Positions 3,811-58,324 of a DNA stretch of 64,000 nucleotides are shown piece after piece. The DNA is from an uncultured Acidimicrobiales bacterium. Its GTDB lineage: Bacteria; Actinomycetota; Acidimicrobiia; Acidimicrobiales; SHLQ01. Position 1 is the first letter of the stretch; each line of letters begins with the position of its first letter. Position numbers and translations under genes: made by a program. The stretch is taken from contig CAKZVC010000008.1 of assembly GCA_937922235.1 (NCBI GenBank), forward strand, positions 1 through 64,000. Reading direction: 5' to 3'. The notes below the pieces were generated by a model, which searched no databases, was not told the DNA's origin, and was given only the letters and a program-made list of their open reading frames with translations.

Positions 3811-3960
3811 GTGTCTTCCTTGGGTGTAGGACCCTGCCCCGTTCGCCGCGCTCGAAACTCGAAGCACGAGGCTTCGGATTCCCAACTCGAACTACAGAGC
3901 GGACGCCCGCGAATTGCGGACTCATAAAGACTAACGCCAACCCACGAATTTCCGCACTGT

Positions 3961-4078
3961 TGCGCTGGGACTCCCGCCCAGGTTTGCGCTGGGACTTCCG
4001 CCCAGGTTTGCGCTGGGACTTCCGCCCAGGTTTGCGCTGGGACTTCCGCCCAGGTTTGCGCTGGGACTTCCGCCCAGA
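3961..4078. repeat. Five tandem 24-bp units, each a family C hairpin
   Basis: Units start at 3961, 3985, 4009, 4033 and 4057. Each contains the inverted repeat CTGGG-ACTTCCG-CCCAG; the first has ACTCCCG in the loop. Adjacent units are otherwise nearly identical, indicating recent amplification. There are no spacers, so it is not a CRISPR array. It lies upstream of rpsO in the 392-bp lipoprotein-rpsO spacer, where no gene is seen. Confidence 0.85.
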
Positions 4079-4126
4079 CCCGCGGACACCGACATGGTCG
4101 TCCGCTCCGCTCCCTCCCCATAGCGC
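4057..4126 (+). repeat. Family C long element (hairpin plus conserved 3' segment)
   Basis: The last tandem unit continues into a segment with CGCGGACACCGAC, ATGGTCGT and CGCTCCGCTCCCTCCCC. This matches 60211-60282 closely, and 24851-24916 in the opposite orientation. The hairpin loop ACTTCCG is shared while the stem bases differ between loci in a compensatory way. Confidence 0.7.
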
Positions 4127-18060: not shown

Positions 18061-18407
18061 ACCCGCATCGTACCCCTCCCCCAATTGGGGTCAGGCCTCA
18101 ACAACTAACAAGTAATCAGCGGGGTCAGGCCTCAACAACTAACAAGTCCCAGCGAGATCGTTGATTGTGCAGGGTTTCCACAAACGCGCCAGAAATCGAG
18201 CACGGCAAGCCTCAAACCCCTCGGCGAACGCCCGAGCCTGTTCTGGAAGGGTTTTCGACCCACTTGTTAGTTGTTGAGGCCTGACCCCAAGCCCAACTTG
18301 TTAGTTGTTGAGGCTCGACCCCACTACCGGGTGGCAAAATCGCGGCCTGAGCTCGAAGCTGCGGAGCCGGTTCGAGCTGACGCGGCCTCCGGCCAGCAAT
18401 CGAACGC
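18061..18407. repeat. dxr-cdsA spacer, part 1: four copies of a 27-bp repeat plus a degraded family A copy
   Basis: A 27-bp unit, starting GGGGTCAGGCCTCAAC and ending CTAACAAGT, occurs directly at 18087-18113 and 18121-18147, and inverted at 18262-18288 and 18296-18322 (one transposition difference in the last). The two pairs face each other across 114 bp and could fold into a long hairpin. 18323-18407 holds a degraded family A copy with the remnant GCCGCGATTTTGCCACC on the minus strand. No gene is seen. Confidence 0.8.
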
Positions 18408-18521
18408 CGCCTCGGGCGCCCAGGCTGCGTGCCGCTTGAACGCTCCCCGAAGGGAGTGACATTGCTTCAGGACCGTGCCGCCAAAATCGGCGACGAAGTC
18501 GCTGGCGGCTAAGGCCTGAAG
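18408..18521 (-). repeat. Family A element, stacked copy not abutting a gene
   Basis: On the minus strand, arms CTTCAGG / CCTGAAG (18515-18521 and 18465-18471) enclose GCCGCC-AGCGACTTCGTCGC-CGATTTT-GGCGGC. The tail then shows hairpins CTCCCTTCGGGGAG, GCGT-loop-ACGC and GCC-CGA-GGC. Same architecture as the gene-end copies, but placed directly behind the cdsA copy. Confidence 0.75.
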
Positions 18522-18618
18522 CCTCCGTGGCGCTTGAACGGCCCCCGGAGGGGACGTGATGTCTGATCGTGCAGGTGGCAAAATCGCGGCGGAGCCGCTG
18601 CCACCGAAACGATCAGAC
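18522..18618 (-). repeat. Family A 3'-end element containing the cdsA stop codon
   Basis: Palindrome 18561-18618: arms GTCTGATCGT and ACGATCAGAC, extended inward by GGTGGC / GCCACC, enclose AGCGGCTCCGCCGC-GATTTT. The cdsA stop TGA (18613-18615) lies inside the outer arm. The tail 18522-18555 has CCCCTCCGGGG and CCGT-TCAAGCGCC-ACGG hairpins and is truncated where the next copy begins. Confidence 0.85.
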
Positions 18619-20280
18619 TTTGTAGAAGACTGCTTCGGCGAAGTAGAAGACGGCTGGCAGGACGAACAGGAGTGCGTCGAAGCGGTCGAGGAATCCACCG
18701 TGTCCTGGGAGGATCGATCCCATGTCCTTGATGCCGAGATCTCGCTTGAGGAGCGATTCGCTTAGGTCACCAAGTGGCGCCACAACGGCGCCGATGAGTC
18801 CGAGGATCGCAGCTTCGCGGTAGCCACCAAGCGATTCGAACGGCTCCATCAGGTCGCGGAGCACGCCCATGAACACGATCGAGGCAACAAAGCTGGCGAT
18901 CGCTCCACCGATAAGACCTTCGACGGTCTTGTTGGGGCTCACTGCAGCGAGCGGGGTTCGACCGAAGCTTCGGCCGGCAAAGAATGCACCGACGTCGTAG
19001 CCAACCGTCACGATGATCGCTGCGAGCAGAAGCCCAGTGCCGTCATCGCCGTTGATTCCCCAGCGGTTTGCAATCTCGAGACTGGCGGCGCCGAAGCTGC
19101 CGAGCACGCCGATGTAGGCAACGCCGAGCAAGGTGACACCCAGGTTCATCACGGGCATCTCGGTAGACACGCCAGACAGGAACCACAGCAGGCCGAAGAT
19201 CACCGACAACGCCATGACGAGTGCGACCGCTTGGGTGCCGCGGAAGTACACCGCTAGCGGAAGGGAGATCGATGCGGCCAATCCGAGCAGCGTTGCGGGC
19301 TGGTATCCAGCGACCCGGAGGGCGTTGTAGAACTCGCCCGCTGAAAGAGCGACGATGACCACGATGAGCAGAAGCGCCAGGAGTGGGCCGATAGTGAGCG
19401 CCACGATTGCGATGCCGAGCAGCGCCACACCGGTGATGATGCGGGACTGCATGTCGCTCCCGGTACCGATTTCTTCGCCGAAGTCTTCGGCGGCGAACTC
19501 GTTCTGGTCGTCGTAGGTGAAGAAGCGTTCGCCCGAGTCCGCACCGATCTGCACCATTGCTGGTTCGTCGGGTGCTGGAGCTGGACCAGGGTCCCATGCC
19601 TCGGGTTGTGGGGCGGACTCGCCTTCGCCCCACGACGGAGCTGAAGCTGACAGATCGGACCAGGCTTCGAGGTCGTCTTCGTCGCCAGGTTCGACGTCGA
19701 GCGCAATCGCCTCGCCGGTTGGGGTGTCTTCGGAGATAGAGACAGAATCGTTTGCTGCTGGAGTCGTCCAGTCATCAAGCGAAGCCGTCTTGGGCTCGTC
19801 GTCGATATCGAGTGAGCTCGGATCATCTCCGGCGTCGCCGAACACGCTGCTCGTGCTGCCAGAGTCGCCAAACACACTATTGGACGGGCCGTCCGCATCG
19901 CCGATGATCACGGTGTCAAGGCCCGGATCCTCTGGCAGATCGGGAATGTCGGCCGCTTCGAGCGCTTCCGTTGCGTCGCCGACCTTGTCGCCAAAGCCGC
20001 CAACGTCGGGGGCATCGAGATCGGGCTCGTCACTGTCGATGCCGCCGAGAGGAAGCTCGGGTTCGGCATCACCGAAGACCGAGCTCGACTCGGGAAGGTC
20101 GATGGCGTCACCGAAGACCGAGCTCGAGTCGGGCAGCTCGTCGCCGGCATCGCTGAAGACTGAGCTCGCTTCGGGCAGCTCGTCGCTGTCACCAAAAACT
20201 GAGCGCGAGCCAAGATCTGGTTCGTCACCAAAGACTGAGCGGCTCGCGCCGTCGTCTTCGTGTTCGTTGTCGTTATCCAC
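18613..20280 (-). CDS. cdsA: Phosphatidate cytidylyltransferase with long acidic N-terminal extension
   Basis: CdsA makes CDP-diacylglycerol from phosphatidate and CTP in the inner membrane. The last 270 residues carry about eight membrane segments and the family signature SLLKRDLGIKDMGS...PGHGGFLDRFD. Upstream lies an unusual acidic, disordered region of about 280 residues with seven repeats of SVFGD (one is SVFSD), spaced 10-14 residues apart, several followed by xxxLPxSS. I chose GTG 20280 because GGAGGA sits 7 bases before it; an upstream TTG at 20328 abuts the frr stop but has no site. frr is directly upstream. A family A palindrome contains the stop codon. Confidence 0.93.
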   Translation of the reverse strand: MDNDNEHEDDGASRSVFGDEPDLGSRSVFGDSDELPEASSVFSDAGDELPDSSSVFGDAIDLPESSSVFGDAEPELPLGGIDSDEPDLDAPDVGGFGDKVGDATEALEAADIPDLPEDPGLDTVIIGDADGPSNSVFGDSGSTSSVFGDAGDDPSSLDIDDEPKTASLDDWTTPAANDSVSISEDTPTGEAIALDVEPGDEDDLEAWSDLSASAPSWGEGESAPQPEAWDPGPAPAPDEPAMVQIGADSGERFFTYDDQNEFAAEDFGEEIGTGSDMQSRIITGVALLGIAIVALTIGPLLALLLIVVIVALSAGEFYNALRVAGYQPATLLGLAASISLPLAVYFRGTQAVALVMALSVIFGLLWFLSGVSTEMPVMNLGVTLLGVAYIGVLGSFGAASLEIANRWGINGDDGTGLLLAAIIVTVGYDVGAFFAGRSFGRTPLAAVSPNKTVEGLIGGAIASFVASIVFMGVLRDLMEPFESLGGYREAAILGLIGAVVAPLGDLSESLLKRDLGIKDMGSILPGHGGFLDRFDALLFVLPAVFYFAEAVFYKV

Positions 20281-20328
20281 GCCAGATTCCTCCACGCAGC
20301 GAGAGTAGTTGCTGGACTTCCCCAGCAA

Positions 20329-20886
20329 CTAAACCTCGAGCAGTTCCTTTTCCTTGGCATCGCGAGCAGCGTCAATGCTGTTCTCGCTTGATTTCGTGTG
20401 GTCGTCGAGCGTCTTCTCAGCGCGCTCGATGTCGTCTTCGCCCACGCCGTCGATCTCGTCGAGGTCCTTGCGGGCAGAACGACGGAATCCGCGGATCTTG
20501 CCCTTGCCATCTTCGGCCATGCCGTTGATGAGCTTGACCATGTCTTTACGGCGTTCCTCGGTAAGCGGCGGGAACGACAGGCGAAGGGTTCGGCCATCGC
20601 TCGTCGGCGACAGGCCGAGGTCGGAGTTACGGATGGCCCGCTCGATCGCTTCGACGTTGCCGAGATCGTGCGGGTTGATAATCAGTGAGCGAGCTTCGGG
20701 AACCGAGAAAGTCGCAAGTTCCTGCAGCGTCATGGGGACGCCATAGGCCTCGACCTGCAGCTTCTCGATGAACGACGAGCTGGCACGCCCGGTACGGATC
20801 GTGGCCATTTCTTTGCGCGTGTGGCTCACGGCGCCTTCCATCTTGGACGCGGCGTCCTCGATGACCATGTCGATCATTTCACTCAT
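20329..20886 (-). CDS. frr: Ribosome recycling factor
   Basis: RRF splits post-termination ribosomes together with EF-G. The 185 residues show IRTGRASSSFIEKLQVEAYG and PLTEERRKDMVKLI, the two most conserved segments. GGAG lies 8 bases before the ATG. It sits 81 bp downstream of pyrH and ahead of cdsA, the usual actinobacterial order. Confidence 0.97.
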   Translation of the reverse strand: MSEMIDMVIEDAASKMEGAVSHTRKEMATIRTGRASSSFIEKLQVEAYGVPMTLQELATFSVPEARSLIINPHDLGNVEAIERAIRNSDLGLSPTSDGRTLRLSFPPLTEERRKDMVKLINGMAEDGKGKIRGFRRSARKDLDEIDGVGEDDIERAEKTLDDHTKSSENSIDAARDAKEKELLEV

Positions 20887-22565: not shown

Positions 22566-22590
22566 GTCAGTTCAACTTTCACTTCTAGGT

Positions 22591-22735
22591 CTGTAGGTAG
22601 TCGTGGGATCTCGGCGGGTGCGAAATCTGTAGGTAATCGTGGGATCTCGGCGGGTGCGAAATCTGTAGGTAGTCGTGCGATCTCGGCGGGTGCGAAATCT
22701 GTAGGTAGTCGTGGGATCTCGGCGGAAGTCCGAGA
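22591..22735. repeat. 36-bp tandem repeat (3.7 units) ending in a family C hairpin, between rpsB and tsf
   Basis: Units start at 22591, 22627, 22663 and 22699, each opening CTGTAGGTAGTCGTGGGATC and continuing TCGGCGGGTGCGAAAT with one or two substitutions. The last diverges into a perfect family C hairpin (22717-22735), reading TCTCGG-ACTTCCG-CCGAGA on the minus strand. The array begins ten bases after the rpsB stop and lies inside the rpsB-tsf transcript. There are no spacers, so it is not CRISPR. Confidence 0.85.
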
Positions 22736-24765: not shown

Positions 24766-24810
24766 TTTGTGAAGGATTTGGACCCTGTCAGGTACCTTTT
24801 CCTTCACAAA
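24766..24810. repeat. 45-bp palindrome between the M23-like gene and the sigma gene
   Basis: Arms TTTGTGAAGGA / TCCTTCACAAA are perfect (11 bp) and enclose an inner near-palindrome GGACCCTGTCAGGTACC. The GGTACCTTTTCC piece resembles the repeats at 5935-6022. It may also terminate transcription. Confidence 0.6.
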
Positions 24811-38082: not shown

Positions 38083-38397
38083 GTTGTTTCTCCAGAAGAT
38101 GGCGATCTCCGGAGTGGCTTTCTCGGTAGCCAAACGAACCGTGCCAGCAACCTACCAACGCGGTGTGACAGCAACTTCTCGACAGCTACTTCTCGACACT
38201 TCCGGTCGAGATCCGCGGAAACCACCATGGTCGCTCCGCGAGCTTCGCCTCCGCGCTGGCGATGGCCGCGCGCCGGCAAACACCGCCCCCGGCGCCCAGG
38301 CTGCGTGCCGCTTGAACGCTCCCTCCCCTCAACCGAATGACCATCAGGGTCAGACCCCAACGGCCGCGCTCTTGGCAATGGCGCCGCGCCGGCAAAC
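38083..38397. repeat. comM-GNAT spacer, proximal part: family C hairpin, solitary family A tail and REP-like palindrome
   Basis: 38191-38211 is a family C hairpin with a different stem, CTCGAC-ACTTCCG-GTCGAG, followed by ATCCGCGGAAACC and ATGGTCGCTCCGCGAGC. 38286-38330 is a family A tail (GCCCCCGGCGCCCAGGC, then GCGT-type hairpin) without its palindrome. 38347-38358 is GGGTCAGACCCC, a palindromic core also found at 60328-60443. No gene is seen. Confidence 0.7.
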
Positions 38398-38512
38398 ACC
38401 GCCTCCGGCGCCCAGCCTCCGTGGCGCTTGAACGGCCCCCAGAGGGAAGACAGGCTCTGACTGGAAGGAGGCAGAATCGCGGCGGAGCCGCTGCCTCCTT
38501 CGCAGTCAGAGC
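38398..38512 (-). repeat. Family A 3'-end element containing the GNAT gene stop codon
   Basis: Palindrome 38454-38512: arms GCTCTGACTG and CAGTCAGAGC, extended by AAGGAGGCA / TGCCTCCTT, enclose GCGGCTCCGCCGC-GATTC. The stop TGA (38506-38508) is within the arm. The tail 38398-38453 holds CCCTCTGGGGG, CCGT-loop-ACGG and GCC-GGA-GGC hairpins. Confidence 0.85.
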
Positions 38513-53832: not shown

Positions 53833-53900
53833 AAGGCCAACAGTACCTGAGGCGCCACCGCACCTCCTGGCGCCTACGACCTAGCTCGCAATCTCCGATG

Positions 53901-54023
53901 ACCGCCTCCGGCGCCCAGCCTCCGTGGCGCTTGAACGGCCCCCGGAGGGGACGGCAAGAAGTAGTTCGAACCCGGAGCAGTCAAAATCAGGCGAAGCCTG
54001 ACTGCGGAGGCTTCGGACTACTT
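53901..54023 (-). repeat. Family A 3'-end element containing the smc stop codon
   Basis: Palindrome 53959-54023: arms AAGTAGT and ACTACTT, then inner pairs CGAA/TTCG and GCAGTC/GACTGC, enclose AGGCTTCGCCT-GATTTT. Stop TAG is 54018-54020, inside the arm. The tail 53901-53953 has CCCCTCCGGGG, CCGT-loop-ACGG and GCC-GGA-GGC hairpins. No gene is seen in the 185-bp gap. Confidence 0.85.
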
Positions 54024-57956: not shown

Positions 57957-58206
57957 AGGGGCCTGTCCCCATAAAGACGACCAGGTGGGGCCTGTCCCCA
58001 ACGATTCGCCGTTGAAATCTCACCGATGACGCCAGCCCGCCTCGGAACAATCGCTGCGCTACCCCAGCAAACTCAACGATTTCACCAACGGGGCCTGTCC
58101 CCATAAACGCGTCTTTACGGGGACAGGCCCCATAAAAATCCCGAGCCACCACAAAACAGACTGCGCCTCGGGCGCCCAGCCTCTCGGGCTGCCACAAAAC
58201 AAACTG
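57957..58206. repeat. smc/mutM-like spacer: four GGGGCCTGTCCCC palindromes and partial family A tails
   Basis: GGGGCCTGTCCCC at 57958-57970, 57987-57999 and 58090-58102, and inverted at 58119-58131. The last two form a 42-bp hairpin with arms GGGGCCTGTCCCC-A-TAAA / TTTA-C-GGGGACAGGCCCC. 58161-58206 holds truncated family A tail pieces (CGCCTCGGGCGCCCAGCC). No gene is seen. Confidence 0.75.
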
Positions 58207-58324
58207 CGCCTCGGGCGCCCAGCCCTGCGTGGCGCTTGAACGCTCCCCCTGAAAGGGAGCTTGGAAGGTTTGATCAAAGCAGCAAAAATCAGCGGCGGAG
58301 CCGCTTGCTGCTTAGATCAAACCT
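58207..58324 (-). repeat. Family A 3'-end element containing the mutM-like stop codon
   Basis: Palindrome 58266-58324: arms AGGTTTGATC and GATCAAACCT, extended by AAGCAGCAA / TTGCTGCTT, enclose GCGGCTCCGCCGC-TGATTTT; 19 of 20 positions pair. Stop TGA (58317-58319) lies in the arm. Tail 58207-58260: CTCCCTTTCAGGGGGAG, GCGT-loop-ACGC and GCC-CGA-GGC hairpins. Confidence 0.88.

Follow-up and report, generated by a model that had tools for sequence, protein, structure and literature searches.

How does a palindrome that takes in the stop codon of a gene come to carry arms that are unlike those at the next gene and yet pair with one another? The question is raised by positions 18408–18618 of the window (the whole stretch of 64,000 nucleotides analyzed here, part of the 4.4-Mb, 118-contig genome G000 of an uncultured Acidimicrobiales bacterium), where a sequence-only reading had placed one of four such gene ends and had offered two explanations, a mobile element whose right arm is made by copying the gene end and a structured 3′-UTR RNA.

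Gene-end palindromes in the window and their common plan

An inverted-repeat scan returned 13 inverted repeats in the window, as against 2–7 in ten shuffles, and recovered perfect 10-bp arms at 18561–18618, 38454–38512 and 58266–58324, while the fourth pair, at 53959–54023, is broken up by internal loops and was read directly. All four palindromes are thereby confirmed, at the ends of genes assigned by Pfam to CTP_transf_1 (cdsA), Acetyltransf_1, SMC_N and Fapy_DNA_glyco. Read 5′ to 3′ on the gene strand, the element measures approximately 125 bp and comprises a left arm (P1, usually with the stop codon), an internal loop, an inner stem (P2), usually one A, and a small hairpin P3 (mostly GCGGC-TCC-GCCGC or GCGAC-TYC-GTCGC), followed by a bulge of GATTTT or a variant, P2′, a loop, P1′ and a conserved tail of about 60 nt, in which a C-run/G-run hairpin precedes SCGTTCANNCGSCACGSAGSC and CGCC-NGA-GGCG. 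The proposed plan of inner stem, A, GC hairpin and GATTTT bulge is thus seen across copies, with variants; P1 and P2 vary in sequence from copy to copy, and conservation is seen in the loop of P3, in the bulge and in the tail. Taking the end of the longest open frame nearby, with frames picked mechanically, 76 of 91 copies have the stop codon between −16 and +5 relative to the first position of P2.

Every copy in the window is on the minus strand, and the full ones end minus-strand genes, save the second member of a tandem. This tandem occupies 18408–18618, which had been taken for a single cdsA copy: the palindrome is real, and the region holds the cdsA copy (18502–18618), its tail shortened, and a complete second copy (18404–18519) nested in that tail. 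In the cdsA copy the left P1 arm GTCTGATCG (18610–18618), which includes the TGA that ends the CTP_transf_1 gene (ORF 18613–20328), pairs with the right arm CGATCAGAC (18561–18569, from the inverted-repeat scan) around an inner hairpin (18574–18605) made up of P2, A, P3 GCGGC-TCC-GCCGC, the GATTTT bulge and P2′. Its tail (18521–18553) consists of parts 1 and 2 (18543–18553 and 18521–18541), ends after ...CACGGAGGC and lacks the remainder, the third tail hairpin at 18408–18419 being part of the second copy. The latter is the top match listed (112.7 bits), and its arms, CTTCAGG/CCTGAAG, recur at three other loci (L011, L012 and L038). The GNAT-gene copy (38396–38512) pairs 38503–38512 with 38454–38463 around an inner hairpin at 38464–38501, with its tail at 38400–38446, and a tail-only copy lies at 38284–38319 (model match 38280–38359, 43 bits). 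In the smc copy (53899–54023), P1 joins 54009–54023 to 53959–53973, with the inner hairpin at 53977–54005 and the tail at 53903–53950; in the Fpg/MutM-gene copy (58203–58324) the corresponding positions are 58315–58324 with 58266–58275, 58277–58313 and 58207–58259. The window also contains a bare palindrome, TAGTTGCTGG/CCAGCAACTA, at 20306–20331, at the stop end of the minus-strand ORF 20329–20886 and without core or tail, and, at 3960–4079 and 22590–22725, tandem repeats with periods of 24 bp (TTGCGCTGGGACTTCCGCCCAGGT) and 36 bp.

Distribution, mobility and orthologous gene ends

Further copies were sought with a covariance model built on 28 copies from G000, matches being counted at E ≤ 0.01. 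The model found 45 copies in G000 and 14–47 in five sister species (G005 47, G007 42, G010 38, G009 29 and G004 14), counts that, with 150 candidates scored in each genome, are possibly lower bounds. The other five members of the genus gave 3 (G006), 2 (G001), 2 (G002) and, for G003 (96% complete) and G008 (67% complete), 0 matches. Three of eight genomes scanned from the same family yielded one or two matches, the best at 53 bits, and nine scanned genomes of other genera yielded 0; a genome-contig scan with cdsA returned three MAG loci, from uncultured Acidimicrobiales. As patterns, the core gave 24 hits in G000 (reversed control 0) and the tail, with at most 2 mismatches, 34 (control 0). The element family is real and is absent from the RNA library searched: at gathering scores Rfam assigned 0 families to the window, and 12 loci gave five hits, every one below gathering score. 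Literature searches, in a library from which most subscription journals are missing, turned up no account of such a family in the papers they listed. Simple gene-specific terminators are rejected as a full explanation, given that the core is almost always accompanied by the conserved tail (for 20 or more of the 24 core hits in G000), as is a viral or plasmid origin, one exact tail pattern giving 0 matches in viral_contigs and one 261-base query no match in plasmids.

For the comparisons that follow, 110 of 130 model matches were taken, low-scoring ones being left out, which with window positions 18502–18615 made 111 copies. An unambiguous core in 91 of these served the arm-pairing and stop-position tests, and 94 distinct 59-nt windows served the analysis of tail covariation. 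Mismatches were counted in 97 distinct hairpins of 123 entries (the 111 and 12 from later loci), after removal of those with no recognizable core, a weak stem or a duplicate.

Orthologous gene ends were then compared for presence and absence. The stretches preceding 15 G000 copies were sought in six species, and 65 matching gene ends were fetched and judged, 3 of them cut by contig ends and 62 informative; the sole orthologous end found for the GNAT gene was cut. By pattern on the gene strand, 55 of the 62 lack tail and core and 7 show one or both. Model scans agree with two exceptions, the L013 gene in G005 (one of the 7), which is unconfirmed, and the L026 gene in G010 (one of the 55), where part of a tail lies on the opposite strand. 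The G009 orthologues at L023 and L031 carry the tail without the hairpin. With 55 of 62 ends empty, copies therefore come and go. The right arm is lacking in nearly all empty alleles, and empty alleles that already hold both arms are not the rule: perfect palindromes of at least 9 bp occur at 4 of the 55 empty ends, compared with 2.5% of 275 shuffles, and over all 55 ends the longest perfect palindromes are much like those in shuffled sequence. Of these four, two belong to another repeat and a further one is a bare palindrome at cdsA in G009 (L177), perfect over 13 bp across the cdsA stop, with a TCC loop and without the bulge; here the empty allele does have a palindrome overlapping its stop.

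The copies L011, L012, L038 and window 18404 share 72–83 aligned bases at 93–99% identity, arms included. Since four copies with the same arms stand at four places, hairpin and tail can move together. Long direct repeats flank few of the 111 copies (34 bp at L014, 46 bp at L019, and the tandem copies), and target duplication, judged by direct repeats of at least 14 bp, is not general among them. At L014 the 34 bp of gene end are directly repeated behind the tail and, in the frame read, a new TGA stop falls within the hairpin core. The G000 element at L019 is flanked by two direct 46-bp copies of a sequence resembling a palindromic repeat, GTGAAGGATTTGGACCCTG..., which also lies at 24766–24810 of the window.

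No mobilizing enzyme was found among the candidates searched for. Y1 transposase genes occur in 11 of 11 genus genomes searched, 44 in all, and mobilization by RAYT finds no support at the 20 of these 44 loci that were fetched, which hold 0 model matches to the element. At 8 of the 20 (L230, L236, L237, L238, L239, L241, L243 and L245), GGGGTCAGACCC- or GGGGACAGGCCCC-type palindromes lie nearby; these are likely the REPs of this genus, and a GGGGACAGGCCCC-type palindrome is also present at 58090–58131 of the window. Reverse transcriptase was rejected as a candidate; it was found in 4 of 11 genomes, two of which hold 0 and 3 copies.

By their upstream sequence, copies from two to four species could be assigned to the same gene. 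At the Fpg gene the outer arm around AGGTTT/AAACCT is common to four species, and the inner stems differ among G000, G004 and the G007/G010 pair; at another gene (L017/L127/L076/L146), four species have three quite different hairpins. Of ten G007/G010 pairs, eight have hairpins of 0.91–1.00 identity beside coding flanks of 0.90–0.96, so that rewriting of the hairpin is not constant, the hairpin in these eight being about as conserved as the coding flank. The L118/L097 hairpins are identical. The hairpin identity of L091/L094 is 0.61, and the 0.50 of L076/L146 is an artifact of a repeat inserted in the tail, the hairpins being identical; this other repeat (GTTTCGAGCCCCTAGGCGAGAAACTCGGTTAGTGAGCGGAGCGAACGG) sits within the tail of L146 (G010) and is absent in L076 (G007). 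In two pairs of copies from sister species (L091/L094 and L216/L167) the entire hairpin has been rewritten together with its stop codon. G007 and G010 have an unusual tail start in common at the L022 gene but differ in stop codon and both arms; L117 (G007) and L094 (G010), at genes not linked as orthologues, share a hairpin including its TAG stop.

Pairing, compensatory change and strand

Pairing was scored as contiguous Watson–Crick P1 pairs, an overly loose earlier score having given means of 10.4 for own and 7.1 for permuted arms. At least 6 such pairs are found in 46 of 91 copies and at least 7 in 33 of 91, against means of 2.5 (maximum 7) and 1.1 (maximum 5) in 200 right-arm permutations. 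Own arms thus pair far beyond permuted arms, and the statement that arms are unlike between loci yet paired within holds. In a 28-copy alignment 97.3% of cells pair, compared with 82.5% after shuffling and 28–53% when slid by 1–3 columns, where the control favors the structure because the latter was partly derived from the same alignment; both sides have changed in 88 cells, versus 24.7 when shuffled. The six outer P2 pairs (columns 14–19) show both-side changes in 55 cells, one-side changes in 0, and 10 unpaired cells; since 0 cells differ on one side, these pairs contain no G-U. Synonymous codon differences between L033 and L126 (TTA/CTT and TTG/CTG, frame read by eye) are mirrored in the right arm, and in L116/L147 a perfect stem and an interrupted one differ at two neighboring positions. 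In G009, L088 and L087 have an identical inner hairpin at two genes, and its outer arms conform to the respective gene, in one case with a single mismatch. Mismatches persist in some hairpins (L123, L110).

The tail covaries as well. For the SCGT/ACGS pair the proposed covariation is real (G-C 47, C-G 34, T-A 5, T-G 2 and other 6 in 94 tail windows), and a second covarying helix, GSC/GSC, absent from the sequence-only reading, counts C-G 64, G-C 28, T-G 1 and C-A 1. The pairs with the highest mutual information in these windows, −1/15 and 10/18, sit in two helices that overlap pseudoknot-fashion. The one-base linker between these looks too short for simultaneous pairing, so alternative folds or recognition by a protein are possible. 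Tail positions 0–5, 11–14, 16–17, 19, 24–27, 29 and 31–34 have one base in at least 89 of 94 windows, a near-invariance that suggests recognition. The two covarying pairs show no strand preference (T-G 3, A-C or C-A 5).

In stems found by Watson–Crick scoring only, isolated mismatches read on the gene strand comprise 6 G-T and 24 A-C of 88 (p = 0.0014), the other 58 being neither. When three flanking pairs are required the counts are 2 and 14 (p = 0.004), and with four 0 and 7 (p = 0.016); these sets overlap and the p values ignore kinship of the copies. P3 alone has 2 G-T and 8 A-C. Mutation bias is an unlikely cause of the A-C excess: coding flanks, confounded by codon usage, contain 170 A/G and 255 C/T differences, and tails show G>A and C>T in 8 and 12 cases, each out of 847. 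The G-T deficit and the improbability of a mutational cause leave two possibilities, restoration of pairing at the DNA level or folding of the opposite strand. We rank DNA-level restoration higher because the double changes without one-sided intermediates, L116/L147 and L033/L126 fit template switching. As a whole, the match between the arms has more the look of DNA copied back onto itself than of an RNA whose pairing is maintained by selection.

Origin of the arms and relation to known systems

The reading that we tentatively favor, at somewhat less than an even chance, is a dispersed REP/MITE-like element that sits on stop codons and in which template switching copies and lengthens the palindrome, so that the arms become gene-specific. 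With a copy at a gene end, DNA synthesis would fold back on the palindrome and copy one arm onto the other; this fold-back copying, that is template switching or quasi-palindrome correction, would mend mismatches and extend the palindrome outwards. Copying of the coding side onto the right arm would be tolerated, and copying in the other direction would replace the last codons and the stop and survive only where the protein end is dispensable. The gene-specific arms would then be a by-product of replication, and the conserved tail is probably the part recognized by a putative mobilizing enzyme. The bare 13-bp palindrome over the cdsA stop in G009 and the inner hairpin shared by L088 and L087, with its gene-following outer arms, count in favor of this explanation, as do the units shared by L011, L012, L038 and window 18404 and the 55 of 62 empty sites. 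Monttinen and Loytynoja 2022 (PMC8794818) describe template switching that makes and mends stems by reverse-complement copying, leaving perfect stems and multi-base compensatory changes, as here; the hairpins there belong to rRNA and microRNA genes, whereas ours form a repeat family that straddles stop codons and frequently includes coding sequence in an arm. By itself, template switching leaves the excess of A-C over G-T (24 to 6) unexplained, and whole-hairpin replacement (L091/L094, L216/L167) needs conversion from another copy, L117 being one donor-like copy in its resemblance to L094, or a fresh insertion. Also counting against this explanation are the eight G007/G010 pairs whose hairpins match their coding flanks in conservation, the mismatches that persist at L123 and L110, the near-chance agreement of right arms with orthologous empty ends and the lack of a mobilizing enzyme among the candidates searched for; the direction of arm copying could not be polarized.

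Copying coupled to insertion, in which the element would prime on the gene end, fold back and leave an inverted copy on the far side in one step, strikes us as rather unlikely. It would suit the one inner hairpin with target-specific outer arms (L087/L088), the missing right arm of nearly all empty alleles, and the native gene ends found inverted in the right arms of L027 (8 nt, empty G009 end), L022 (7 nt, G004) and smc (6 nt, G007). By eye, the paired gene end looks native at smc, L009, L013, L022, L023, L026 and L027, not native at cdsA, L010, L021, L031 and L037, and could not be judged at L034 and L025; at cdsA, L021, L037 and L014 it is unlike that of empty relatives. However, in 57 blind comparisons of right arms with orthologous empty ends the mean match was 5.0 nt, versus 4.7 for non-orthologous ends, and matches of at least 7 nt arose in 3 of 57 as against 25 of 741, L026 of the three being out of register. 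This near-zero excess counts against simple one-way copying of the ancestral gene end. Moreover, L011, L012, L038 and window 18404 extend by eye at most 1 base pair onto their targets, and the reverse transcriptase domain PF00078 was not found in the incomplete genomes G000, G005, G007 and G009. Of the proposed mobile element that copies the gene end, mobility is supported (55 of 62 ends empty, four shared sites), and copying upon insertion would be a further, conjectural step.

We consider it unlikely that the element is a structured RNA at the mRNA 3′ end, a terminator, stabilizer or translation brake kept paired by compensatory selection. Its placement at stop codons (76/91), a P3 hairpin followed by GATTTT in the manner of a short terminator, and the covarying tail with its near-invariant positions would all agree with such a role, as would the finding reported in PMC12306157 that REPs within 15 nt of a stop codon lower translation. 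The wobble tolerance of a structured mRNA element is, however, not seen on the transcribed strand, where G-T falls below A-C (6 to 24, p = 0.0014), the opposite of what selection on RNA predicts, and this G-U deficit disfavors the 3′-UTR RNA of the sequence-only reading; in addition, 55 of 62 orthologous ends do without the element and G003, at 96% completeness, has no match.

A functional structure on the opposite strand, either folded single-stranded DNA or antisense RNA, is doubtful. Sense A-C becomes G-T or G-U there, so that wobble would be tolerated on that strand (24 to 6 in stems, 8 to 2 in P3), and mutation bias is an unlikely source of this imbalance. The numbers are small, though, the copies are related, 58 of 88 mismatches are of neither type, the covarying tail pairs lack a strand preference, and no enzyme is tied to opposite-strand folding. 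Equally doubtful is a new kind of mobile DNA that would fold as the single strand opposite the gene, land on stops and copy the end of the host gene into its outer arm. Integron attC sites combine variable pairing arms, a gene-end position and bottom-strand folding. The present element is like attC in the first two and may be so in the third; attC sites have conserved box triplets, none of which were noticed by eye at stem ends here, and the host genes here include smc and cdsA.

Among the closest known systems are two kinds of small repeat. Like REP/BIME repeats (RAYT, Y1), the element is a short, intergenic palindromic repeat in tens of copies or more, some just past stop codons and sometimes in tandem, and its many dispersed copies (14–47 in six genomes) are as expected for REP/RAYT. 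In REPs, however, the palindrome is conserved, whereas here the arms are gene-specific and no palindromic core is common to all copies. The 20 of 44 Y1 loci fetched have 0 element matches, other repeats flanking 8 of them. Like non-autonomous MITEs, the element is small, apparently non-coding, dispersed and hairpin-forming, without an enzyme of its own seen, and is present or absent at orthologous sites (55 of 62 without tail or core); MITEs differ in having constant terminal inverted repeats, where our outer arms vary by site, and target-site duplication, which is not general here among 111 copies for repeats of at least 14 bp. What would be new is an unusual way of making arms in small dispersed repeats. 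If the insertion reading is true, this would be a mode of transposition new to us. If the template-switch reading is true, the element would provide a natural record of quasi-palindrome copying in bacteria, to which several species each contribute dozens of loci and in which coding sequence serves as the reference arm. It would also show that strong covariation, normally accepted as proof that an RNA is functional, does not require selection on that RNA.
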